A stretch of 64,000 nucleotides of DNA from Catonella massiliensis (GTDB taxonomy: Bacteria > Bacillota > Clostridia > Lachnospirales > Lachnospiraceae). Below the pieces are notes generated by a model. The model saw only the letters and a program-made list of their open reading frames with translations. It was not told the origin of the DNA and searched no databases. The stretch's first letter is position 1. The number at the start of each line of letters is the position of its first letter. The position numbers were made by a program, and so were the translations under genes. Positions 28,684 to 61,805 of the stretch are shown here, piece by piece. Where the stretch lies: assembly GCF_016651435.1 (NCBI RefSeq), contig NZ_JAEPRJ010000001.1:744001-808000 (forward strand), read 5' to 3'.

Positions 28684-28754
28684 TGGGCTATCGCCAAGCG
28701 GTAAGGCAACGGACTCTGACTCCGTCATCAAAGGTTCGAATCCTTTTAGCCCAG
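28684..28754 (+). tRNA. tRNA-Gln (CUG anticodon)
   Basis: A 71-nt cloverleaf. The acceptor stem TGGGCTA pairs with TAGCCCA, followed by discriminator G. The anticodon stem ACGGA/TCCGT encloses the loop CTCTGAC with anticodon CTG, and the T-arm contains GGTTCGAATCC. CCA is not encoded. A terminator at 28762-28788 follows. Confidence 0.93.
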
Positions 28755-29409: not shown

Positions 29410-31320
29410 GTGGCACAGGAAAATCAGGCACTTGACACTAATGAGCAGGTTGAAATTCGCAAGGAGAAGCTTGAGACTCTTAAGGCGGCAGGCAAAGATC
29501 CTTTTGTGACAACCAAGTTTGATGTTACACATCATTCAGTAGATATAAAAAATGATTTTGATAATTTAGAGAATAAACAGGTAACAATAGCCGGAAGGAT
29601 GATGTTTAAGCGCATCATGGGTAAGGCAAGCTTTTGCAACCTTTCAGACAGATACGGAAGTATGCAGTGCTATGTAGCGAGAGATTCTATTGGAGAAGAG
29701 GCTTATGCTGAATTTAAGAAATATGATGTAGGTGATGTAATCGGCGTTAAGGGCTATGTATTTAAGACAAAGACTGGCGAGATTTCAGTACATGCTGAAG
29801 AAGTTACCCTCCTTACCAAGAGCCTTAGACCTCTTCCTGAGAAGTATCACGGACTTAAGGATACAGAGGCAAGATATCGTCAGAGATACCTTGACCTCAT
29901 TATGAATCAGGACGTAAGAAATACCTTTGAAAAAAGGTCACAGATACTTAAAGAAATCCGTTCCTTCCTTGCAGAGAAGGACTTTATGGAAGTAGAGACT
30001 CCTCTTCTTGTTGAAAACGCAGGCGGAGCGGCTGCAAGACCATTTTTCACTCATTACAATGCACTTGATGAAGAAAGAAAGCTTAGAATCTCTCTTGAGC
30101 TTTATCTTAAGCGCCTTATAGTAGGTGGTTTTGAAAGAGTGTTTGAGATTGGACGAGTATTTAGAAATGAGGGTGTAGATACCAGACACAACCCTGAATT
30201 TACACTTATGGAGCTTTATCAGGCTTATACGGACTATAACGGTATGATGGACCTTACTGAAGAGATGTTTAGATATCTTGCTGAGAAGGTTTGTGGAAGT
30301 GCTGTTATTACTTACAATGGAATAGAGCTTGATTTTAGCAAGCCATTTAAGCGTATAACTATGCTTGATGCGGTAAAAGAGTATTCAGGAGTTGATTTTA
30401 GTACAATCACCACAGATGAAGCGGCTAAGGCTATAGCTAAGGAGAAGAATATTGCTTTCGAGCCTCATCACAAGAGGGGTGATATCATCAACCTTTTCTT
30501 CGAGGAATTCTGCGAGGAGAAGATGATACAGCCTACCTTTGTTATGGATCATCCTATTGAGATTTCACCTCTTACCAAGAAAAAGCCGGGAGCAGAGGAT
30601 AGAGTTGAGCGTTTCGAGCTTTTCATAAATACCTGGGAGATGTGTAACGCTTATTCAGAGCTTAATGATCCTATCGATCAGAGAGAGCGTTTTGCTGCTC
30701 AGGATGCACTTGCTGCAGCAGGCGATGAAGAAGCAAACCACACTGACGAGGACTTCCTTACAGCACTTGAGTATGGTATGCCTCCTACAGGCGGTATCGG
30801 TTACGGTATAGACAGACTTGTAATGCTACTTACCGATTCAGCCTCAATTAGAGATGTACTCTTATTCCCTACACTTAAGAGCCTTAACCCTGATAAGAAG
30901 ACATCTTCATCAGTAAGCACAGAGTCAAAGCCTGTGGAGAAGATTGATTTCTCAAAGGTTGAAATAGAGCCGCTTTTTGCAGATACAGTGGACTTTGAGA
31001 CTTTCAGTAAGTCTGATTTTAGAGCAGTTAAGGTAAAAGACTGTGTAGCAGTACCTAAGAGCAAGAAGCTGTTACAGTTCACCCTCGATGATGGTACAGG
31101 CACAGACAGAACAATTTTAAGTGGCATTCATGCCTACTATGAGCCTGAGGAGTTAATTGGAAAGACACTTGTTGCCATTACCAACCTTCCTCCAAGAGCT
31201 ATGATGGGAATTGAGTCCTGTGGTATGTTACTTTCAGCTATTCACAGCGAAGAAGGCGAGGAGAGACTTAACCTTCTTATGGTAGATAACAGGATACCTG
31301 CTGGTGCTAAGTTGTACTAG
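29410..31320 (+). CDS. lysS: Lysyl-tRNA synthetase with C-terminal tRNA-binding domain
   Basis: Class II aminoacyl-tRNA synthetase for lysine, 636 residues from GTG 29410. The N-terminal OB fold (about 55-150), class II motif 1 (FLAEKDFMEVETPLL), motif 2 (FERVFEIGRVFRNEG) and motif 3 (GIGYGIDRLVMLLT) are present. The usual enzyme ends near residue 500; here a linker is followed by a second OB-fold tRNA-binding domain like the MetRS C-terminus (about 530-636, DFRAVKVKDCVAVPKSKKLL to PAGAKLY). The last 101 bp are duplicated at 35750-35850. Confidence 0.96.
   Translation: MAQENQALDTNEQVEIRKEKLETLKAAGKDPFVTTKFDVTHHSVDIKNDFDNLENKQVTIAGRMMFKRIMGKASFCNLSDRYGSMQCYVARDSIGEEAYAEFKKYDVGDVIGVKGYVFKTKTGEISVHAEEVTLLTKSLRPLPEKYHGLKDTEARYRQRYLDLIMNQDVRNTFEKRSQILKEIRSFLAEKDFMEVETPLLVENAGGAAARPFFTHYNALDEERKLRISLELYLKRLIVGGFERVFEIGRVFRNEGVDTRHNPEFTLMELYQAYTDYNGMMDLTEEMFRYLAEKVCGSAVITYNGIELDFSKPFKRITMLDAVKEYSGVDFSTITTDEAAKAIAKEKNIAFEPHHKRGDIINLFFEEFCEEKMIQPTFVMDHPIEISPLTKKKPGAEDRVERFELFINTWEMCNAYSELNDPIDQRERFAAQDALAAAGDEEANHTDEDFLTALEYGMPPTGGIGYGIDRLVMLLTDSASIRDVLLFPTLKSLNPDKKTSSSVSTESKPVEKIDFSKVEIEPLFADTVDFETFSKSDFRAVKVKDCVAVPKSKKLLQFTLDDGTGTDRTILSGIHAYYEPEELIGKTLVAITNLPPRAMMGIESCGMLLSAIHSEEGEERLNLLMVDNRIPAGAKLY
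31220..31320 (+). repeat. lysS 3'-end repeat, left copy (within lysS)
   Basis: The last 101 bp of lysS match 35750-35850 at 93 of 101 positions, including an exact core of 38 bp. All eight differences are synonymous. Confidence 0.95.
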
Positions 31321-31378
31321 TTAGAAGAATTTGTAATTGGTGTCATGTGTATTAAACTAAATAAAATGTAATATATAA

Positions 31379-31421
31379 GACTGCTCCATAGCTAAAAGAC
31401 AGCTGTGGACGGTCTTTTTTT
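31379..31421 (+). terminator. Terminator after lysS
   Basis: GACTGCTCCATAGCT pairs imperfectly with AGCTGTGGACGGTC and is followed by seven T residues. Confidence 0.8.
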
Positions 31422-31427
31422 GTTTGG

Positions 31428-31476
31428 TTGACAAACAATCAAAAAAATATTATAATAAAAACTGACTGAAGTCAGT
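31428..31476 (+). promoter_or_regulatory. Promoter and operator of tetR-ABC operon
   Basis: TTGACA at 31428-31433 and TATAAT at 31451-31456 with 17-bp spacing. Immediately downstream lies a palindrome, ACTGACT GA AAGTCAGT read as arms 31461-31467 and 31470-31476. It covers the transcription start, the typical place for a TetR-type repressor to bind. Confidence 0.75.
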
Positions 31477-31500
31477 CAATAAATATGAGGTAGAATTTAC

Positions 31501-32097
31501 ATGGCAAAAACTAAAGAAGAAAGACGCAAGGAAATCATTGAGACAGCTGGAAAGTTGTTTGAGGAGAAGGGATATGAGCAGACACAAGTACAGGATATTG
31601 TCAATGAAATTGGAGTAGCAAAGGGACTTTTCTATTATTACTTCAAGTCAAAAGATGAAGTAATGGAGGAGTTGGCAGATAGATATGCAGACGCGATAAT
31701 AGATGCTGTCAACGAATTGATAGATAAGGATATAAGCACCTTTGACAAAATCAATCGTATTTTTCAAATTTTTATTGATTCGGCAGAAAAAAAGTCTGGC
31801 ATATTTATGGGAATCCTAAATGTGAAAAACGGTATAACACACGAGAGGATTTTTTTCAATGTTGGGGAAAAAATGGTTCCTCTTGTAACAGAACTTATAC
31901 TTTCTGGAAATGATAATGGAGAATGCAACTGCAGTGACCCAAAGTTTATCACTGAGTTTTTGGTTTCAGGATTGTTTAATATCATGAATCAAATTTCTCC
32001 AGATGAGAAGATCGATTATTTGAAGGAAAAACTACCAACAATCAAGACAATGATTCTTAAACTATATAATTTTGCTGAACAGAAGGAGAGCAAATGA
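31501..32097 (+). CDS. TetR-family transcriptional regulator
   Basis: A 198-residue regulator. The N-terminal helix-turn-helix is RKEIIETAGKLFEEKGYEQTQVQDIVNEIGVAKGLFYYYFKSKDEV, the canonical TetR sequence, and the rest is the helical ligand-binding domain. A Cys cluster near the C-terminus (ECNCSDP) could take part in ligand sensing. ATG 31501 follows TGAGG. The palindrome over its promoter suggests autorepression, and the exporter-like ABC genes at 32273-35280 are the likely target. Confidence 0.9.
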   Translation: MAKTKEERRKEIIETAGKLFEEKGYEQTQVQDIVNEIGVAKGLFYYYFKSKDEVMEELADRYADAIIDAVNELIDKDISTFDKINRIFQIFIDSAEKKSGIFMGILNVKNGITHERIFFNVGEKMVPLVTELILSGNDNGECNCSDPKFITEFLVSGLFNIMNQISPDEKIDYLKEKLPTIKTMILKLYNFAEQKESK

Positions 32098-32201
32098 GTA
32101 GATATTACGTATACACAGAATTAACAAATGCCATTGAACAGGCGATGCTAGTATGCGGTCTTGAGTCAGAAAGTACGCAAATATCTCATTTCATTGTTTA
32201 G
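32094..32201 (+). CDS. Small ORF overlapping the tetR stop
   Basis: ATG 32094 overlaps the tetR stop (ATGA) and encodes 35 residues, starting MSRYYVYTELTNAIEQAM. The upstream AAGGAGAG (end of tetR) is a good ribosome site, so it may be translated by coupling. No family is recognised; it could be a truncated gene, since further codons downstream are not in frame. Confidence 0.4.
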   Translation: MSRYYVYTELTNAIEQAMLVCGLESESTQISHFIV

Positions 32202-32272
32202 CATGGTGAACGTTTCCATTTTGCTCCCGAAAAAGGACGATATTGTATTCTTTACATAGCGAGGTGAATATA

Positions 32273-32974
32273 TTGAAAACAGTTACATTTGAGAATGTAT
32301 CAAAGACATATAATGTTGGTGACAGCGAGGTAACGGCACTTGATCATGTCAGCTTCAGCATTGAAGACGAAAGCGTCACTGTGATTTTAGGACCGAGCGG
32401 ATCTGGAAAGAGTACGATGCTCAATCTTATAGGTGGCATGGATAGAGCCTCATCTGGGTGCATACGGGTGTCAGATACCGATATTTCAAAGCTCAATGAA
32501 TTTGAACTAACCGAATACAGAAGGAAAAAGATAGGATTTGTTTTCCAGTTTTACAATCTGATACCATCACTTAATGCGCTAGAGAATGTCAGTATTGTGG
32601 CTAAGATGACGCCACATTCGTTTGACGCAAAGGAAATGATCCGTAGTGTCGGGCTGGAGGATAGATGTCAGCATTTTCCTGATGAACTTTCAGGCGGAGA
32701 AATGCAGCGCTTGTCTATCGCACGTGCCATATGTAAAAATCCTGACATTCTTCTCTGTGATGAGCCAACAGGGGCTCTGGACAGCGCTACAGGAAGGAGT
32801 GTACTTCAACTTCTTACGGATATGGCCAGGAAATATAACAAAACCGTAATCATAGTGACGCATAATGCATCTATTGCGCTATGCGCTAATGAAGTGATAC
32901 ACCTAAAGGACGGTAGGATCGAATTTTCTGAGAAAAATGAAAAACCTTTGAAGGTTGACGAGGTAAACTGGTAA
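32273..32974 (+). CDS. ABC transporter ATPase, MacB/LolD/FtsE type
   Basis: ATPase partner of the FtsX-like permease that follows, 233 residues from TTG 32273. Walker A is GPSGSGKST, the Q-loop is FVFQFYNLIPSLNALENV, the signature is LSGGEMQRLSIARAI, Walker B is ILLCDEPTGALD, and the switch is IVTHN. These are the hallmarks of the MacB/LolD group. The start is chosen at TTG because GAGGTG lies 6 nt upstream; the open frame from 32243 includes the ribosome site itself. The stop overlaps the permease start (TAATG). Confidence 0.9.
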   Translation: MKTVTFENVSKTYNVGDSEVTALDHVSFSIEDESVTVILGPSGSGKSTMLNLIGGMDRASSGCIRVSDTDISKLNEFELTEYRRKKIGFVFQFYNLIPSLNALENVSIVAKMTPHSFDAKEMIRSVGLEDRCQHFPDELSGGEMQRLSIARAICKNPDILLCDEPTGALDSATGRSVLQLLTDMARKYNKTVIIVTHNASIALCANEVIHLKDGRIEFSEKNEKPLKVDEVNW

Positions 32975-35280
32975 TGGGTACACTGTTTCGTAAAATGCTT
33001 CGTGACATCTGGCGACTGAAATCTCAGTTCCTGTCGATATTTATCATGTGCGCTCTTGGAATGCTGATATACTCAGGTATCGAGGGAGTATGGAACGGTA
33101 TGGAGCAGGAAGAGATTGCCTATTTTAAGGATTCAAATCTGGCAGATATCTGGATCAATGGTCTCGGATTTGACAATGATGATATTGGACAGATAAAAGA
33201 GCTTGATGGGGTAAACGAAACCCAGCTTTCCGCTGTAGAAAGCGCATATCTGGATAGCGATTCCAATGTCAATATCTGTCTTATATCCAACAAAGACAAT
33301 AAAATATCAAAGCCTTTATGTATTAACGGAAATGAATATAAGCCAACAGAAGACGGCATCTGGCTGGATAAAGATTATGCAGACAATAAGAAAATCCATG
33401 TTGGTGACCAGATTCAGATATACTACGGTGAAAAAAGTCAAAAGTTAGAAGTTAAGGGATTGGTCTACAGCCCTGAGTATATCTGCTATACAGGTTCATC
33501 TACATCCACGGTGCCAGATCATTCGAAATATACCTATGGATTCATATCAGCAGATACTCTTTCTCAGATAGTCCCTAATGCAGCCTATAATCAGATAAAA
33601 ATTACTACAGATAATATAACTGACGTGGATTCACTGCGCTCAGATTTGAAAACTATTCTAGGTGATAAATATATGATGTGTTATGACAGAACGGAATACA
33701 CACCTGTATCTTCATACATAAATAAGATCGGGCAGATAAAAAAGATGTCTGTCATGTTTTCACTCGTATTTTTTCTTCTGGCACTCCTTACCATTTACAC
33801 AACTATGACAAGAATTGTCAGGAAGCAGCGTACACAGATCGGAATATTAAAGGCGCTTGGTTTTCATCCTCTTCAGATCCAGCTACATTATGCTGTTTAC
33901 GGACTTGTCATCAGCATTCCAGCAGCATTACTGGGCTATGAGCTTGCACCATATACAGTAACCCCTGTCCTTCTTTCTCTGCAGAAAAAGTTTTACAGCA
34001 TGCCTGAATGGCTGGGGCGTAATTCGTATTATTCAGTAATACTTATTGTACTGCTTATCACTATCTGTACCTTATCTGCCTGGATCTCATGCAGATCCAT
34101 CGTAGCTGAGACACCGGCTGATTTGCTCCGTGCTTCTGGCAGGCAGAGTCAGAAAAAGGTCTTTGCTGAACATTTTAAAGTTCTGTGGAACAGACTGAGC
34201 TTTGACTGGAGATGGATCATCCGAGATGCAGGACAGAACAAAATTCGTACAGCAATAGGAATTGTAGGCGTTTTAGGGAGCATGATGCTTCTGATGTCAA
34301 GCTTCGGATTAAAAGACACTATCAACATCGTAAACAGTGAGATTTATGGCAGGCAATACACTTATTATGAAAAGTTAAATCTCAGTATGTCTCCAACAGA
34401 GGATGAAGTCAAAAAAATAGAATCTCTTCTGTCAGGCGACTGTCAGTGGGTAAGCGAACAGTCATGTGAGGCAAAAAGCTCAATGTCTGTTCATTCTGAA
34501 AGTCTGTTTATTATTGGTCAGGGTTATTTTTTCACGACATATGATACTGATGGAAATGTGCTGGAACTGCCTGATGATGGAATAATTCTATCCGGTTCTT
34601 CAGCCAGGGATCTGAATGTGAAAGAAAACGGATTTATCAGCATACTTATAGCGGGAAAGAGAAATTATCTGAAGGTCTCCCAGATAGCAGATATAAACAG
34701 CCCTCAGGGAATATTTATGTCGCAGTCATACTGGAAATCGCTTGGCAATACATTTACAGCCAGCGCATTATTGGCAGATGACAACATGAATCTGGACGAT
34801 GTGAGGCAGATGTCTGTTATCAAAGATTCAGTCAAGTTGAAGAAACAATACAGTGAGTCAGAGGAATTGCTGGACAGCGTTCAAGGAGTGATCATACTTC
34901 TAATCGTAGCAGCCATTCTTCTAAGTATTGTGATCCAGTATAATCTCGGATTATTGAACTTTACAGAAAAATACAGAGAATATGCCACACTTCGTGTTCT
35001 CGGCAGCTACAATACAGATATAAAGAGTCTTATCTTTAAAAGCAGCCTGATCACCATGGTGACAGGGTGGATAATTGGCTCGATTGCCGGATGGTATTTT
35101 CTTGGACTATATGTCAGAACAGTCTCAACAACCACGATTTCATATTCACCTCATTTACGATTGATATCATATATAATTGTTTCATTGATCGTCGTAGGCT
35201 GCTCTCTTTTGATCCAGCTTATGGTATGCAGGTTAACAGCACATATAGATATGGTCGAATCGTTGAAGTCGGTCGAATAA
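32974..35280 (+). CDS. FtsX-like ABC transporter permease
   Basis: A 768-residue membrane protein with two FtsX-type repeats. An N-terminal span (about 15-35) is followed by an extracytoplasmic domain, then three spans (about 255-400), one span near 425-445, a second extracytoplasmic domain, and three more spans (about 635-755). This MacB/YknZ-like layout serves export or mechanotransmission rather than channel-like transport. RKQRTQIGILKALGFH and EKYREYATLRVLGSY are the paired coupling helices. With the ATPase it forms a complete transporter under the upstream TetR regulator. Substrate unknown; antimicrobial or lipid export is typical. Confidence 0.88.
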   Translation: MGTLFRKMLRDIWRLKSQFLSIFIMCALGMLIYSGIEGVWNGMEQEEIAYFKDSNLADIWINGLGFDNDDIGQIKELDGVNETQLSAVESAYLDSDSNVNICLISNKDNKISKPLCINGNEYKPTEDGIWLDKDYADNKKIHVGDQIQIYYGEKSQKLEVKGLVYSPEYICYTGSSTSTVPDHSKYTYGFISADTLSQIVPNAAYNQIKITTDNITDVDSLRSDLKTILGDKYMMCYDRTEYTPVSSYINKIGQIKKMSVMFSLVFFLLALLTIYTTMTRIVRKQRTQIGILKALGFHPLQIQLHYAVYGLVISIPAALLGYELAPYTVTPVLLSLQKKFYSMPEWLGRNSYYSVILIVLLITICTLSAWISCRSIVAETPADLLRASGRQSQKKVFAEHFKVLWNRLSFDWRWIIRDAGQNKIRTAIGIVGVLGSMMLLMSSFGLKDTINIVNSEIYGRQYTYYEKLNLSMSPTEDEVKKIESLLSGDCQWVSEQSCEAKSSMSVHSESLFIIGQGYFFTTYDTDGNVLELPDDGIILSGSSARDLNVKENGFISILIAGKRNYLKVSQIADINSPQGIFMSQSYWKSLGNTFTASALLADDNMNLDDVRQMSVIKDSVKLKKQYSESEELLDSVQGVIILLIVAAILLSIVIQYNLGLLNFTEKYREYATLRVLGSYNTDIKSLIFKSSLITMVTGWIIGSIAGWYFLGLYVRTVSTTTISYSPHLRLISYIIVSLIVVGCSLLIQLMVCRLTAHIDMVESLKSVE

Positions 35281-35389
35281 AATGTTGTCTTAAGAAAAAA
35301 TAACCGCCGTCTGCAGATATTTAAAATCCTGTGCGAGATTACCGCACCGGGTTAACTGCAGTACGCCTAGTGGTGCACGTTTCTAACAG

Positions 35390-35745
35390 GTTCAGAGCCT
35401 GAATTTATAGAAGATGACGTATTTAAAATCATTATTCCCCTGTCTGTCGGTTCGAGGACAAAGGTAGGCCCAGAGACTTCTCTTGTAGCAAGTGGTCAAG
35501 TCAAGTGGTCAAGTCAAGTGATCAAGTTGATTAAAAGATGATCGGAGTCAAGCTGGATATTGTGAAACTTAATGAATTGCTGCACAGAAGCCAGGACAAG
35601 AGCTGAAATACAGGAATTTTGTGATATTAGTTCCAGGGACTATTTCCGGAAAAAGATTTTGATGCCGTTACTTAACAGCGGCAGACTGAAACGCACAATC
35701 CCTGAAAAGCCAAACAGCAGCAAGCAGAAATATATAAAGGCATAA
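35390..35745 (+). pseudogene. Remnant of an AlbA_2/HATPase_c_4-type ATP-binding protein
   Basis: Two fragments in different frames. The first (about 35390-35541) reads GSEPEFIEDDVFKIIIPLSV, then a Ser-Gly-Gln-Val-type linker encoded by tandem copies of AAGTGGTCAAGTC, and stops. The second (about 35578-35745) reads RTRAEIQEFCDISSRDYFRK, then LMPLLNSGRLKRTIPEKPN and stops. This is the typical C-terminal end of the predicted regulators with AlbA_2 DNA-binding and HATPase_c_4 domains. The N-terminal two thirds are absent. Confidence 0.6.
35491..35530 (+). repeat. Short tandem repeat AAGTGGTCAAGTC
   Basis: About three imperfect copies of a 13-15 bp unit, encoding the SGQV-like linker of the relic. 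A related stretch (AGTGGTCAAGTTGTCAAGT) recurs at about 37646-37665 after abiEii, also followed by a GATCAAAAGGTGAT-type tail, suggesting a second relic of the same gene type. Confidence 0.6.
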
Positions 35746-35749
35746 ACAA

Positions 35750-35850
35750 GTGGTATGCTTCTTTCAGCTATTCACAGTGAAGAGGGCGAGGAGAGACTTA
35801 ACCTTCTTATGGTAGATAACAGAATACCAGCTGGGGCGAAGTTGTACTAG
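35750..35850 (+). pseudogene. Duplicate of the lysS 3' end (right copy)
   Basis: Encodes SGMLLSAIHSEEGEERLNLL and on to PAGAKLY and a stop, identical in protein sequence to the end of lysS at 31220-31320 but with eight synonymous changes. It has no start codon and follows directly after a relic gene. It marks the right boundary of the island inserted behind lysS and was probably once the end of a complete lysS. Confidence 0.9.
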
Positions 35851-35907
35851 AAGAAAGCTTGTTGCTTTTAAGGTGTATTTAGAAATAAGAAAATTGAATA
35901 ACAATGT

Positions 35908-35937
35908 AAAACGCTCGGATTAGTCCGGGCGTTTTTT
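35908..35937 (+). terminator. Terminator behind the lysS end copy
   Basis: AAAACGCTCGGA pairs with TCCGGGCGTTTT around a 4-nt loop, followed by T residues. It may be the ancestral lysS terminator. Confidence 0.85.
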
Positions 35938-36114
35938 GTCGGAATTTTCTATCTAAAAATATGTATTTACTTTAGCTAATAAATTTTTTAGATAAGATCA
36001 AAGGAAAAAGCCAAATTACATTGACATTTAGTGGATTAAAAAGTATAATATAATTATTAAACTATACAAAAATATATAGATAATTGTATAATATAATTAA
36101 AAGAGGTAATTGTG

Positions 36115-36708
36115 ATGAGTAAAAGCCTTAGATCAATTTTTGATAAATATGGTGGAATAATGAGTACTGCTGAACTTAAAGAGGAAGGTTTTTATTATAA
36201 GAAGATTCAGAATGCGCTGGAAGAAGGTGAGATAGAGCAGGTAAGGAGAGGATATTATCAATATTTGGGCGAGCATTCGTTTTCTGATATACCTGTTATA
36301 ACCAGATTATTTCCAGATGGAGTAATATGTATGGAAAGTGCACTGGATTTTTATGGATATACTGACAGGACTCCATCTGCTTGGCACTTGGCGGTGGATA
36401 ATAAAAGCACGAGGACAAGGTTTTATATTGATTATCCTATTATAAAGCCCCATTTTATTAAAAGAGAGAGATATAAGGTGGGAATAGAAGAAGCAGAAAT
36501 TGATGGTAAATTGGTCAAGATTTATAATAGAGAAAGAACAATTTGCGATCTTCTTCTTCATAGAAATAAAGTCGATGGAGAAGTATTCAATACAGCCATT
36601 CAAAGATATATTCAAGATCCCGACAAGGTTACTGCGAGATTGGTGAAATATGCGAAGCAACTTCAAGTGGAAAAAAAGGTGAGGGAGGTTCTGGGGGTAT
36701 GGCTTTGA
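36115..36708 (+). CDS. AbiEi-type antitoxin
   Basis: A 197-residue protein with an N-terminal winged-helix part (LRSIFDKYGGIMSTAELKEEGFYYKKIQNALEEGEIEQVRRGYYQ) and a C-terminal domain of the AbiEi_1/AbiEi_4 type (VICMESALDFYGYTDRTPSAWHLAV, RTICDLLLHRNKV). It is the antitoxin and autorepressor of a type IV-like AbiE system. The start is ATG 36115, behind AAGAGGT; GTG 36112 is also in frame. The toxin gene overlaps its last 10 nt, as usual for this pair. Confidence 0.85.
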   Translation: MSKSLRSIFDKYGGIMSTAELKEEGFYYKKIQNALEEGEIEQVRRGYYQYLGEHSFSDIPVITRLFPDGVICMESALDFYGYTDRTPSAWHLAVDNKSTRTRFYIDYPIIKPHFIKRERYKVGIEEAEIDGKLVKIYNRERTICDLLLHRNKVDGEVFNTAIQRYIQDPDKVTARLVKYAKQLQVEKKVREVLGVWL

Positions 36709-37598
36709 AAAACATAGCTGCATCAGTTTTAGCAAGATTGAAGAATCAGTCAAAAGAAGAAGGGATATCATTTCAGCTGGTACTTCAACTTTTTGCTCAG
36801 GAAGAATTCTTAAGAAAACTATCTGTGTCTAGGTACTCCGATAATTTGATACTAAAAGGTGGAATGTTCATCTACACACTTACAGAATTTGATTCCAGAC
36901 CTACTAGAGACATAGACTTTATGATTAGAGAACTTCATGGAAGCCTTGAGAATATAAGGCAAACAATGGAGTGTATATGTAATGTCAGCACAGGAAATGA
37001 TTTTATAAAGCTTGAGGTTTTGGACACAGAGCCAATTACAGTCGATAAAAAATATCCTGGTGTGAAGACTATGCTTATTGGTAGAATTGAGAAAGTGAGA
37101 ATTCCATTTTCTATTGATATAGGTATTGATGATGTAATTGTGCCAATCCCTGTAAAAAGAACTATTGTTACAAGACTTTCTGGTTTTGTATCACCTGAGG
37201 TTTTTACATATTCGTTGGAGAGTACAATTGCAGAGAAATTTGATGCAATTCTTCAGAGGATGTCTGGAACAAGTAGAATGAAGGACTTTTATGATATTTA
37301 TTATCTTTGTGGGATATTTGATTTTGAAGGTATTGTCCTTACGCAAGCACTTAGAAGCACTTTAACACACAGAAATAGGGTGTTACAAACAGATGCCTTC
37401 ACAGAAATCAGAGAATTTAAGGATAACGTTGTATTAAATACTCAGTGGACTGCATTTGATCCTGTAAAGAACTCGAAATTATTATTTGAAGAAGTAATAG
37501 ATAGGCTTATTACATTTATTGAACCTATTTATGAGATGTTGATAGCAAATCAAGATTTTAATAAAAACTGGAGTTGTAAAAGTAAAATGTGGAATTAA
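36699..37598 (+). CDS. AbiEii/AbiGii nucleotidyltransferase toxin
   Basis: A 299-residue nucleotidyltransferase-like toxin of the AbiEii family. The catalytic motif LKGGM (residues 52-56) plus TRDIDF (69-74) supplies the GG and the metal-binding aspartates, and ESTIAEKFDAIL with RMKDFYDIYYL is the third conserved block. Related toxins add nucleotides to tRNA. ATG 36699 overlaps the antitoxin gene. Key residues are intact, so the pair looks functional. It is a phage-defence-type module located next to the lysS-bounded island. Confidence 0.88.
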   Translation: MALKNIAASVLARLKNQSKEEGISFQLVLQLFAQEEFLRKLSVSRYSDNLILKGGMFIYTLTEFDSRPTRDIDFMIRELHGSLENIRQTMECICNVSTGNDFIKLEVLDTEPITVDKKYPGVKTMLIGRIEKVRIPFSIDIGIDDVIVPIPVKRTIVTRLSGFVSPEVFTYSLESTIAEKFDAILQRMSGTSRMKDFYDIYYLCGIFDFEGIVLTQALRSTLTHRNRVLQTDAFTEIREFKDNVVLNTQWTAFDPVKNSKLLFEEVIDRLITFIEPIYEMLIANQDFNKNWSCKSKMWN

Positions 37599-37757
37599 AA
37601 GAATGCCTACTGATAGCTATTTTTATCTCTTAGTGGGCATTTAAAGTGGTCAAGTTGTCAAGTCGATCAAAAGGTGATTGGAGTTTAATTGATAGATTAT
37701 GGTATACTGTAATAAAGCAATGTGAGTTAATATTACAAAAGTTTAGGAGACACAAAA

Positions 37758-38558
37758 ATGTCAAATCAAACAGATATAATCATACATGAGATAGAAGCAG
37801 AAAAGCTTCGTAGAGAAAATCTCACTGTGGAAGAATTAAAGAAAGCTTACAATAAGCTGGCAGAGCATAATTTCCCAGGAGCAGAAAGAATTAAATTTAT
37901 AGCTGACTTAGGTGGCAGCAGGGAAATTGCCTATCACTATGAACTTATCTGTAAGGACTTAAAAGAAGGTAATAGGTTAAATATATCAAGTAGCTTTGAC
38001 AGGCACGGAAAAGAAGGACTTGAGTTTTTACTTTGTGAACTTGATAAAACTGAGGATGAGGAAGAAAAGGTAAATACAGCTTATCTGATGGCGGAAAATC
38101 TGTCTAAAATGAAACACAGAGATTTTTATATAGATTTTTGTGATAGATTAAATCCTATACTAGCTTTGCTTTTAGCAACAAAGGACAGTAAGCTTAGGCA
38201 GAAGGTAATCATAGCATTAGGCTGGGTTGGATCCGAGAGAGAAGCAGATATCTTATCAAAGCGGATGCTTATTGATGAAGATGAGCTTTGCAGGGCTTGG
38301 TCAGCTTCGAGCCTCATGCAAATGTCATTTCATAGGATAAAAACAGAGACAATATGTAAGCTTTCTGCTAAAGCATTTATGCAAGCTATTGAAGCTGAGA
38401 AAGATATCGAGGCTTCTGCGATAATGATAGAAGCGGCGCAGACTTTGTTTAGAAAGCGCTGGCTGCGAACATCTGATATAGATAATACGGATGATGAAAA
38501 AGTAGAAAAGGCAAGAAAATCCGCTGTGAAATTTTTAGATAAGTATGATATAATGTGA
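37758..38558 (+). CDS. HEAT-repeat-like helical protein
   Basis: A 266-residue, all-helical, acidic soluble protein. The part from about 60 to 230 has repeating helical pairs resembling HEAT repeats (for example KDSKLRQKVIIALGWVGSEREADILSKRM followed by CRAWSASSLMQMSF). Such repeats bind proteins or nucleic acids; no partner can be named. ATG 37758 follows TAGGAGA. It stands between the AbiE pair and the YgbA-like/Fic pair, on the same strand. Confidence 0.6.
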   Translation: MSNQTDIIIHEIEAEKLRRENLTVEELKKAYNKLAEHNFPGAERIKFIADLGGSREIAYHYELICKDLKEGNRLNISSSFDRHGKEGLEFLLCELDKTEDEEEKVNTAYLMAENLSKMKHRDFYIDFCDRLNPILALLLATKDSKLRQKVIIALGWVGSEREADILSKRMLIDEDELCRAWSASSLMQMSFHRIKTETICKLSAKAFMQAIEAEKDIEASAIMIEAAQTLFRKRWLRTSDIDNTDDEKVEKARKSAVKFLDKYDIM

Positions 38559-38671
38559 AGGCTGAGCTTAGTACTTGTGATATGATGATACAGAAGTAAG
38601 GTGATTATTATACTTAAAACATTTGAATATAAACCACAAGGTGGAGTTTAAATTTCGGAAGGTAAATCTCT

Positions 38672-59957: not shown

Positions 59958-60116
59958 CTCTTTTCTCCAAAAGTCATAATGATATCATAAAAGCTTCTAA
60001 TAAATATCATAAATACAAGCTTAGGTTTACATTACTTGGTTTAACCATGATACAAGGTAATTTTAGCACTTTACAAGGGCAAAGTAAAGAGTAATAAATT
60101 CACCCTGATATTTAAC

Positions 60117-60230
60117 GAATTTAATTCTTATGGCATAATGAAGGCTGTATAGGACGTTGCTTTGATGTCAATATGTATATGTAAGTAATGAAAATGTGTG
60201 AGAGTTAATGGGAGTGAGGTAATGGAGAAA
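60117..60230 (+). repeat. 114-bp leader repeat, left copy
   Basis: Matches 61692-61805 at 109 of 114 positions. It contains a leader, a GAGG ribosome site and the first codons ATGGAGAAA of the gene at 61797. Confidence 0.93.
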
Positions 60231-60392: not shown

Positions 60393-61685
60393 ATGATTAT
60401 AGAAAGAAAGCAATATTTAGATGAACTAATTAAGAAAAAGGATAACGGAAGAATTAAAATCATCACAGGTATCAGAAGGTGTGGTAAGTCATATTTGTTG
60501 TTTGAACTATACAAGAATTATTTATTGAAAAATTGTATAGCTGAAAACCAAATTATTGAAATGGCTCTCGATGATATCGAAAATAGTGGGTATAGAGATC
60601 CGTTTAAGCTCAATGAATATATAAAAAATAAGATAACTAGTGATAAAAGATATTATATTTTTATTGACGAGATACAATTTTCAAGGTCGGTAAAAAATCC
60701 ATATATTGATGATGATGATGAAAAGATTACTTTTGTTGATGCATTACTTTCACTTATGAAACGAAAAAATCTTGATATATATGTTACCGGAAGTAATTCA
60801 AAAATGCTTTCTAAAGATATTTTGACACAATTTAGAGATAGGGGAGATGAAATACATGTTTATCCTTTATCGTTTGCTGAGATGAGTAGCTGTTACGAGG
60901 ATAAAGATAAAGCATGGGAAGATTATGTACTTTGCGGTGGAATGCCATTTGTACTAGAAATGGACACCTTTGAAGAAAAGAGCAGATATTTGAAAGGATT
61001 ATTTGAGGAAACATATATTAAGGATATCATAGATCGAAAGCAGATAAAAAATAGTGAGGAAGTATTAGAAGTTTTACTAGATTTTGTATCATCAGCAGTA
61101 GGCTCACTTACAAATCCACTTAAGCTATCTAATAGATATGCTTCGGAAAAAAAGATAAATATATCAAATAATACTATTTCAAAGTATTTAACATATTTTG
61201 AAGAAGCCTATGTTTTGTATGCTGCTAAAAGATACGATATTAAAGGTTCAAAATACTTTTCTACACCACTTAAATACTATTTTGCTGATATTGGTCTTAG
61301 AAATGCAAGATTGAATTTTAGACAAGTTGAAGAAACGCATATTATGGAAAATATCATTTACAATGACTTGTTAAGAAGAGGATTTAATGTTGATGTGGGT
61401 GTTGTGGAATATTTTCCAAATGTGGAGGGAAAAACAACAAGAGTACAATTAGAGGTTGATTTTATTATTAACAGAGGAAATCTCAGATATTATATTCAAT
61501 CAGCTTTTGCTATAAACAGTGAGGAGAAGAAAGAACAGGAAAGAAACTCTCTAAAACGAATTGACGATTCTTTTAAGAAAATTATTATTGTCAGAGATAA
61601 TATAGTGCCAAGATACGATGAGTATGGAATTTTCTACGTTGGAATCAGAGACTTTTTGCTAATGGACGATTTTCTTGAAGCATAA
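60393..61685 (+). CDS. AAA_14/DUF4143-type ATPase
   Basis: A 430-residue ATP-binding protein. Walker A is TGIRRCGKSYLLFEL (about residues 25-39), Walker B is YYIFIDEIQF, sensor region VTGSNSKMLSKD, and the C-terminal half is DUF4143-like (PLKYYFADIGLRNARLNFRQ, LEVDFIINRG). The C-terminal part has a PD-(D/E)XK-nuclease-like E-V-D-F pattern. Such genes are common, variable accessory genes of uncertain role, often mobile or defence-linked. ATG 60393 follows GAGGTG. Base composition is more AT-rich than its neighbours, and it lies between the 114-bp leader repeats. Confidence 0.85.
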   Translation: MIIERKQYLDELIKKKDNGRIKIITGIRRCGKSYLLFELYKNYLLKNCIAENQIIEMALDDIENSGYRDPFKLNEYIKNKITSDKRYYIFIDEIQFSRSVKNPYIDDDDEKITFVDALLSLMKRKNLDIYVTGSNSKMLSKDILTQFRDRGDEIHVYPLSFAEMSSCYEDKDKAWEDYVLCGGMPFVLEMDTFEEKSRYLKGLFEETYIKDIIDRKQIKNSEEVLEVLLDFVSSAVGSLTNPLKLSNRYASEKKINISNNTISKYLTYFEEAYVLYAAKRYDIKGSKYFSTPLKYYFADIGLRNARLNFRQVEETHIMENIIYNDLLRRGFNVDVGVVEYFPNVEGKTTRVQLEVDFIINRGNLRYYIQSAFAINSEEKKEQERNSLKRIDDSFKKIIIVRDNIVPRYDEYGIFYVGIRDFLLMDDFLEA

Positions 61686-61691
61686 TTGAAT

Positions 61692-61805
61692 GAATTTTAT
61701 TCTTATGGCATAATGGAGGCTGTATAGGACGTTGCTTTGATGCCAACATATATATGTAAGTAATGAAAATGTGTGAGAGTTAATGGGAGTGAGGTAATGG
61801 AGAAA
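61692..61805 (+). repeat. 114-bp leader repeat, right copy
   Basis: Leader and start of the gene at 61797; five substitutions relative to 60117-60230. Confidence 0.93.

Follow-up and report, generated by a model that had tools for sequence, protein, structure and literature searches.

The window, that is, the whole 64,000-nucleotide stretch of Catonella massiliensis DNA that was analysed, contains lysS followed by an island of transporter genes and gene relics, at the far end of which the 3' end of lysS occurs a second time. The following features were identified at this locus.

29410-31320, forward strand: lysS, encoding a 636-aa LysRS with an anticodon-binding OB fold, the catalytic core and a C-terminal tRNA_bind domain (ORF; Pfam PF00152, PF01336, PF01588)
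30865-30877, forward strand: site of the 13-bp integration core inside lysS, here TTCCCTACACTTA (codons FPTLK; pattern scan, core defined in relatives)
31015-31317, forward strand: stretch coding for the LysRS tRNA_bind domain (tBLASTn boundaries; PF01588 at residues 538-633)
31220-31320, forward strand: left repeat copy, the present lysS end (repeat search, direct comparison)
31501-32097, forward strand: TetR-family regulator of the island (PF00440)
32243-32974, forward strand: ABC transporter ATPase of the island (PF00005)
32974-35280, forward strand: FtsX-type ABC permease of the island (PF02687)
35389-35745, forward strand: gene relic with a Fic-like_C end (PF21247); a shorter relic lies elsewhere, at C1:3013684-3013812
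35750-35850, forward strand: right repeat copy, the last 101 bp of a putative displaced lysS end, with a sharp left edge (repeat search, direct comparison, genome BLAST)

The two copies share 93 of 101 bases, lie 4,530 bp apart and are on the same strand. Their eight base differences fall in seven codons without any amino-acid change, and both copies encode the same 32 residues. The repeat search and the direct comparison thus reproduced the preliminary description, according to which the last 101 bp of lysS recur at 35750-35850 with synonymous differences only. The match had a BLAST E value of 3e-37 in a database of the window and ten fetched loci; in a search of the whole genome, with lysS itself as the sole other match, it was 3.3e-35. 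These comparisons confirm that the repeat is real and exclude chance. The right copy corresponds to the terminal part of the tRNA_bind domain (PF01588), the domain fused to LysRS in the window. Whole-genome BLAST recovered one complete lysS besides the right copy, and hence not the complete second lysS that had been considered earlier as a possible source of this copy. In relatives, a 13-bp core, TTCCCNACNATGA (codons FPTMK), lies at the end of the LysRS catalytic core; TTCCCTACACTTA in the window departs from it at positions 6, 10 and 12. A tRNA gene was also considered as the insertion target and rejected, as the sole tRNA found in the window, tRNA-Gln at 28684, is distant from the repeat.

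Between the copies, Pfam recognises a TetR-family regulator, an ABC ATPase, an FtsX-type permease and Fic-like_C fragments, in agreement with the earlier reading of a TetR-controlled ABC transporter accompanied by gene relics. The right copy begins at 35750, four bases past the stop codon of the preceding Fic-like_C relic. This relic and the one at C1:3013684-3013812 both hold ...GCATAAACAA and diverge from there; because they share this sequence and then part, 35749/35750 represents a true junction. No 13-bp core was found ahead of the right copy, and the displaced end begins only at 35750. The loss of the integrase, as previously described, was also seen here: no integrase relic was found in 31000-38600, where the best integrase match had an E value of 0.03 over 31 aa. 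Neither convincing DUF6462, ParA or ParB relics nor conjugation genes were found in the window. Searches of 40 relatives with the island DNA returned short weak matches only. Base composition was tried as an island marker and discarded, the contrast between island genes (0.34-0.42) and flanks (0.39-0.40) not being useful.

Past the right copy, but still ahead of the resumption of synteny with the sister species C. morbi, Pfam and PADLOC identify an AbiEi/AbiEii type IV toxin-antitoxin pair (36112-37598); the variable region therefore extends past 35850. Short AGTGGTCAAGTC repeat units occur at 35491-35527, within the gene relic, and at 37632-37655, behind the AbiE genes. A 121-bp direct repeat with 94% identity (60110-60230 and 61685-61805) is located towards the right end of the window.

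The nearest relative of the window genome is Catonella morbi ATCC 51271 (G003). The last 141 bp of lysS gave one match in C. morbi, its own lysS, and no second copy of the lysS tail was found there with this query. Window DNA from about 37745 onward aligns ~27.8 kb downstream of C. morbi lysS; therefore, the inserts that separate lysS from a HEAT-repeat gene in the two species are unrelated. A comparison with relatives lacking the 4.5-kb segment had been proposed, and C. morbi is such a relative, with other DNA behind its lysS. This DNA starts with decayed DUF6462-type, ParA and ParB pieces (E values of 7e-30, 4e-5 and 2e-17, respectively) directly behind the gene, and DUF6462, ParA and ParB genes also adjoin lysS in several intact elements of the family described below (the gene-cluster label DUF6462 is based on one member). 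Over the 101 bp, the left copy and C. morbi differ at 11 bases, the left and right copies at 8, and the right copy and C. morbi at 9 (92/101 identical); the latter two values indicate that the displaced end originated inside the genus.

PADLOC matches to DrmA and DrmB (DISARM) and two NERD/UvrD-type helicases were present in the C. morbi insert (L033, 300-9100), indicating that the locus behind lysS houses defence genes in that species. Among other congeners, lysS of G004 is unfused and the contig of G002 stops 54 bp past a fused lysS. A contig of G001 (L042, G001:C55) breaks off within the 13-bp lysS core, after eight of its bases, as would be expected of an assembler faced with alternative junctions.

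A 66-aa LysRS tail was searched against 397 genomes of the family (E ≤ 1e-12) and matched in 145 of them, three of which (G004, G112 and G214; about 1e-13) are probably matches to MetRS. Two or more matches were found in 30/397 genomes, including the window genome. In many of these multi-match genomes, one copy ends a full-length lysS and the others stand separately on that strand, at distances of 7 to 98 kb. Members of a recombinase family of about 410 aa immediately precede separate lysS tails, and the one member scanned with Pfam has Tn916 Integrase_DNA and Phage_integrase domains. A tyrosine recombinase, which had been suggested as a feature to look for in larger versions of the island, was thus located in other genomes, adjoining the displaced lysS end. 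An integrase search (E ≤ 1e-100) gave 76 matches in 66 of the 397 genomes, and 50 of these matches were looked at. At 44 of the 50 loci, a lysS end that begins with the core is present 160-404 bp downstream of the integrase; it is absent from the remaining six, one of which (L152) spans 202 bp only. The 44 ends comprise 18 with tRNA_bind, 25 short ends (such as FPTMKSLDK) and one 217-aa HD-like end in G183, whose HD-domain resemblance scores 21.5 against a Pfam cut-off of 22 bits. A stricter core pattern gave lysS ends behind the integrase at 17/30 and 5/20 loci, and the false-positive rate of the relaxed pattern was then measured. In these controls (PT motif, at most four mismatches), ends were found at 0/50 loci on the reverse strand, and shuffled DNA gave 0.25 per 50 on average.

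The linkage between integrase and displaced end was also evaluated in loci retrieved by the tail alone, a fairer test because the other loci were picked for having an integrase. A count of 27/39 was biased in this way, many loci having been fetched for the integrase, and the tail-only set was relied on instead. It contains 58 loci, with 45 tails fused to lysS and 13 separate, 11 of the latter having at least 1 kb upstream. Within 1.1 kb upstream, an integrase adjoins 7 of these 11 separate tails and none of the 45 fused ones; none was found within this distance for the other four separate tails. By genome presence, the tail occurs in 31/66 integrase genomes versus 145/397 overall, a weak association, as expected if elements bear either form of the end. 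The integrase is 100% identical in protein sequence in two genera (G165 and G342). Examples of other genes in the elements of relatives are a MobA/VirD2-type relaxase, a T4SS coupling protein, ParA, ParB and RepA_N; the conjugation genes were recorded as examples, not element by element. Truncated displaced tails are also present in L067, G449 and G520.

Two further arrangements were observed. In L089-L092 (G165:C8), three displaced tails, each with its own integrase, stand in a row behind one lysS, forming a tandem element array. In L124 (G139:C11), around 5255, the core, a tRNA_bind end and DUF6462-type, ParA, ParB and RepA genes follow a short non-lysS ORF, and this element seems to have entered a secondary site.

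Outside the family, 52/391 genomes of a class-level sample matched the tail (E ≤ 1e-15), and the weakest four of these matches (about 1e-16) may be MetRS. G556, a member of another family, has a separate tail preceded by an integrase piece with 99% identity over 223 aa to a reference integrase. IMG/VR yielded one partial match. A phage collection yielded 18 records, of which the three closest are all unverified faecal contigs. MT839044, filed as phage, carries a DUF6462-type piece, an integrase and a tail, and MT838375, likewise filed as phage, carries ParB, RepA, a free domain and a coupling protein; both are element pieces. The third record contains the tail alone. The plasmid matches that were opened showed lysS on very large replicons.

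The effect on LysRS was investigated by comparing 107 distinct fused lysS genes (5,671 pairs). Pairwise identity in one half of the core region correlates with that in the other half at 0.85; between core and 3' end the correlation is only 0.28. Of all pairs, 64 have 3' ends that agree to at least 95%, and in 47 of these both core halves are at most 80% alike. The 47 discordant pairs span 12 genera, one of them from another family (G462). As a control, 450 bp of the core are at least 95% alike in two pairs, neither of which is discordant. In the class-level sample, the proteins of G428 and G464 share 59-60% identity with that of the window in the LysRS core and 90-92% in the domain. Everything 3' of the 13-bp core is swapped, often ~150 aa including the tRNA_bind domain. 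In four mapped pairs, identity is 60-77% in the 30 bp ahead of the core and 98-100% behind it, and the core itself agrees at 13/13 positions in three pairs and at 11/13 in one. Past the stop codon, G290 and G058 remain 100% identical for 920 bp; the other three pairs show 93% then 58%, 84% then 64% (G211/G122), and 98% over the 201 bp compared. From these genome comparisons we conclude that LysRS ends move across genera, and at least once across families, by what appears to be site-specific recombination with mobile elements.

A nearly empty site was found in the congeners G395 and G092, whose lysS cores are 95.6% alike. In G092, about 80 kb separate lysS from the last displaced tail, and the DNA behind that tail matches the DNA behind lysS in G395 over 2,253 bp with 95.5% identity; a ~1.85-kb stretch exclusive to G395 precedes the match. 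The pair G122/G413 was set aside as proof of an empty site, being uninformative with 592 bp that match alike on either side. The proposal that every LysRS fusion was made by an element was unsupported, as records of Collinsella aerofaciens and Vescimonas fastidiosa contain fused lysS with no adjacent element.

In some genomes, LysRS is without the domain. The lysS genes of G124, G281 and G301 end in FPTMKPIDK, FPTMKTVKE and FPTMKQLDK; in each case the tRNA_bind end is found on the same contig and strand, preceded by an integrase, at a distance of about 120, 169 and 60 kb downstream, respectively. Five further genomes (G048, G067, G189, G223 and G388) combine a short lysS end with a tRNA_bind end behind an integrase on other draft contigs, and in G183 the short end is paired with the HD-like end on another contig. 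Gain of the domain has one candidate only, G322, spread over two contigs; the congeners G017 (short end) and G357 (fused, widely shared end) are consistent with gain. In G123 and G400, which have short lysS ends, a free-standing tRNA_bind ORF is situated a few kb behind lysS, after ParA, ParB and RepA, and the gene order of MT838375 is that of these free-domain elements. G284, also with a short end, has a free tRNA_bind ORF about 70 kb away, some 6 kb ahead of an integrase, and another such ORF is present in G247. Judged by eye, the starts of the free ORFs look like they have proper ribosome-binding sites. The three genomes with short ends suggest that elements that leave LysRS without its domain may supply the domain in trans.

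No internal stops were found in the 34 separate domains that are not identical to a fused one, and the median dN/dS was 0.087 for separate domains (n = 31) versus 0.109 for fused ones (n = 123); since free-standing genes are among the 34, these values fit recent displacement and selection alike. We tentatively propose, as a possibility with somewhat less than an even chance of being right, that the elements exchange a domain of an essential synthetase, that integration and excision give LysRS a C-terminal domain (tRNA-binding or HD-like) or take it away, and that some of the elements leaving the synthetase without the domain encode it as a separate gene. If so, mobile DNA would reversibly determine how LysRS is built in Clostridia, and effects on lysine charging may serve the element.

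Against this background, the repeated lysS end in the window most likely marks where a mobile element, since decayed, entered lysS by site-specific recombination; 31321-35749 would be what remains of it. In intact relatives from gut bacteria, as genome comparison shows, a Tn916-type tyrosine recombinase joins the element to the 13-bp core at the end of the lysS catalytic core, its catalysis being presumed from the integrase family. The element brings a new lysS 3' end and displaces the old one to its far right, right behind the integrase. On this reading, the lysS of the window today ends in the left copy, the right copy preserves the final 101 bp of what was displaced, and a later deletion probably eliminated both integrase and right att core together with ~350 bp at the start of the displaced end. 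Both copies encode the same peptide, presumably because each was a LysRS end for most of its history. A displaced same-strand lysS end is present at the far end of the insert (its last 101 bp), the 13-bp core before it and a tyrosine integrase beside it are absent, and C. morbi carries a different, ~27.8-kb insert. With the integrase and the right att core gone from the window, both its membership of this element family and the site-specific step are inferred. The preliminary description had proposed an element or homologous event that used the 3' end of lysS as target. The insert in C. morbi and the integrases beside displaced ends support the element, and the likely target shifts from the 101 bp to the 13-bp core ~350 bp further upstream in lysS. 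The restoration of the gene end from a diverged relative, also proposed there, is supported and proves to be wider in scope, the whole end of the protein being swapped in relatives, often with a domain.

The absence of both the integrase and the att core from the window, the plain junction of the right copy with a gene relic and the origin of this copy in the same genus would also suit homologous or illegitimate recombination without an integrase, for instance the uptake of DNA from a related strain in which a lysS end and the transporter genes arrived together, with two lysS ends as the outcome. We consider this unlikely, as integrases in the family are commonly followed by a displaced lysS end and decayed pieces of such an element lie directly behind lysS in C. 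morbi. In favour of a simple duplication of the lysS end within the lineage, with the copies then diverging and other genes inserting between them, no closer match to either copy was found than the other copy (93/101). A startless 101-bp fragment drifting freely is, however, unlikely to show eight differences and no amino-acid change, and the region is wholly different between the two sister species, which makes a duplication highly improbable. An origin of the right copy from a former complete second lysS is barely credible: no point supporting it was found, both Catonella genomes argue against it (one complete lysS in the window genome, one match only in C. morbi), and what precedes the copy is a gene relic unrelated to lysS.

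The lysS 3' ends shared across the family could in principle have arisen without integration of elements, through gene conversion among lysS genes. Identity fades past the stop codon in three of the four mapped pairs, as in G211/G122, and fused lysS genes without an adjoining element exist. Yet the break falls at the 13-bp core in all four pairs, the identity of G290 and G058 runs far beyond the stop codon, and displaced ends sit behind integrases. Gene conversion is therefore very unlikely, and integration of mobile elements at the core remains our preferred explanation for the shared ends.

The window holds only a relic, and the main interest lies in the family-wide swapping of the end of an essential synthetase. 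An essential enzyme usually deemed to be vertically inherited acquires its C-terminal end from mobile elements, and such exchange explains both mosaic LysRS sequences and the patchy occurrence of the tRNA-binding domain. An orphan LysRS end behind an integrase can serve as a clear marker for these elements and their relics. Excision is predicted to change the form of LysRS inside one strain.

The exchanged domain has sequence relatives in Trbp111 and the C-terminal tRNA-binding domain of MetRS (PDB 1pyb, 8vtz and 1mkh; E value of 8.5e-20 for 1pyb), whereas in the lysS elements it is fused to LysRS or free inside some elements. The only LysRS chains matched in the PDB comparison were 4up7/4up8 and kin (777 aa), with a weak E value of 1e-6. 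Exchange of a LysRS domain by such elements was not found in the literature searched, a body of text without most subscription journals. The insertion of prophage e14 into icd of E. coli was reportedly first described by Hill et al. in 1989. Like the lysS elements, e14 supplies a diverged 3' end to a gene of an essential pathway, and the old end, 163 bp long, persists as a duplicate on its far side; according to the available part of the source, the protein is little altered, whereas lysS elements exchange, remove or omit a whole domain (PMC6379469).

lysS itself is already known as an integration target. Three Streptococcus ICEs have been reported whose tyrosine integrases target the lysS 3' end; unlike the elements described here, their direct repeats are 13 or 17 bp long, and the accessible portion of the report does not mention domain exchange (PMC4701971). 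The vanD islands or putative ICEs of Enterococcus (Tn6711-Tn6713, ICEVREfm_vanD) also integrate in the lysS 3' end; their 13-bp repeat lies 17 bp from the gene end, and LysRS domain exchange is unmentioned in the parts of these papers available to us (PMC8301612, PMC10765050). The relic in the window differs from them in that the repeat at the right end and the integrase are both missing. In the excerpts at hand, circularisation of the vanD islands is reported (PMC8301612), and their authors suggest an origin in Blautia or other Clostridiales (PMC8301612, PMC10765050). As given there, these islands have an integrase, and their 13-bp repeat, TTCCC[g/a/c]AC[a/g]ATGA, is the core of the lysS elements described here (PMC8301612, PMC10765050).
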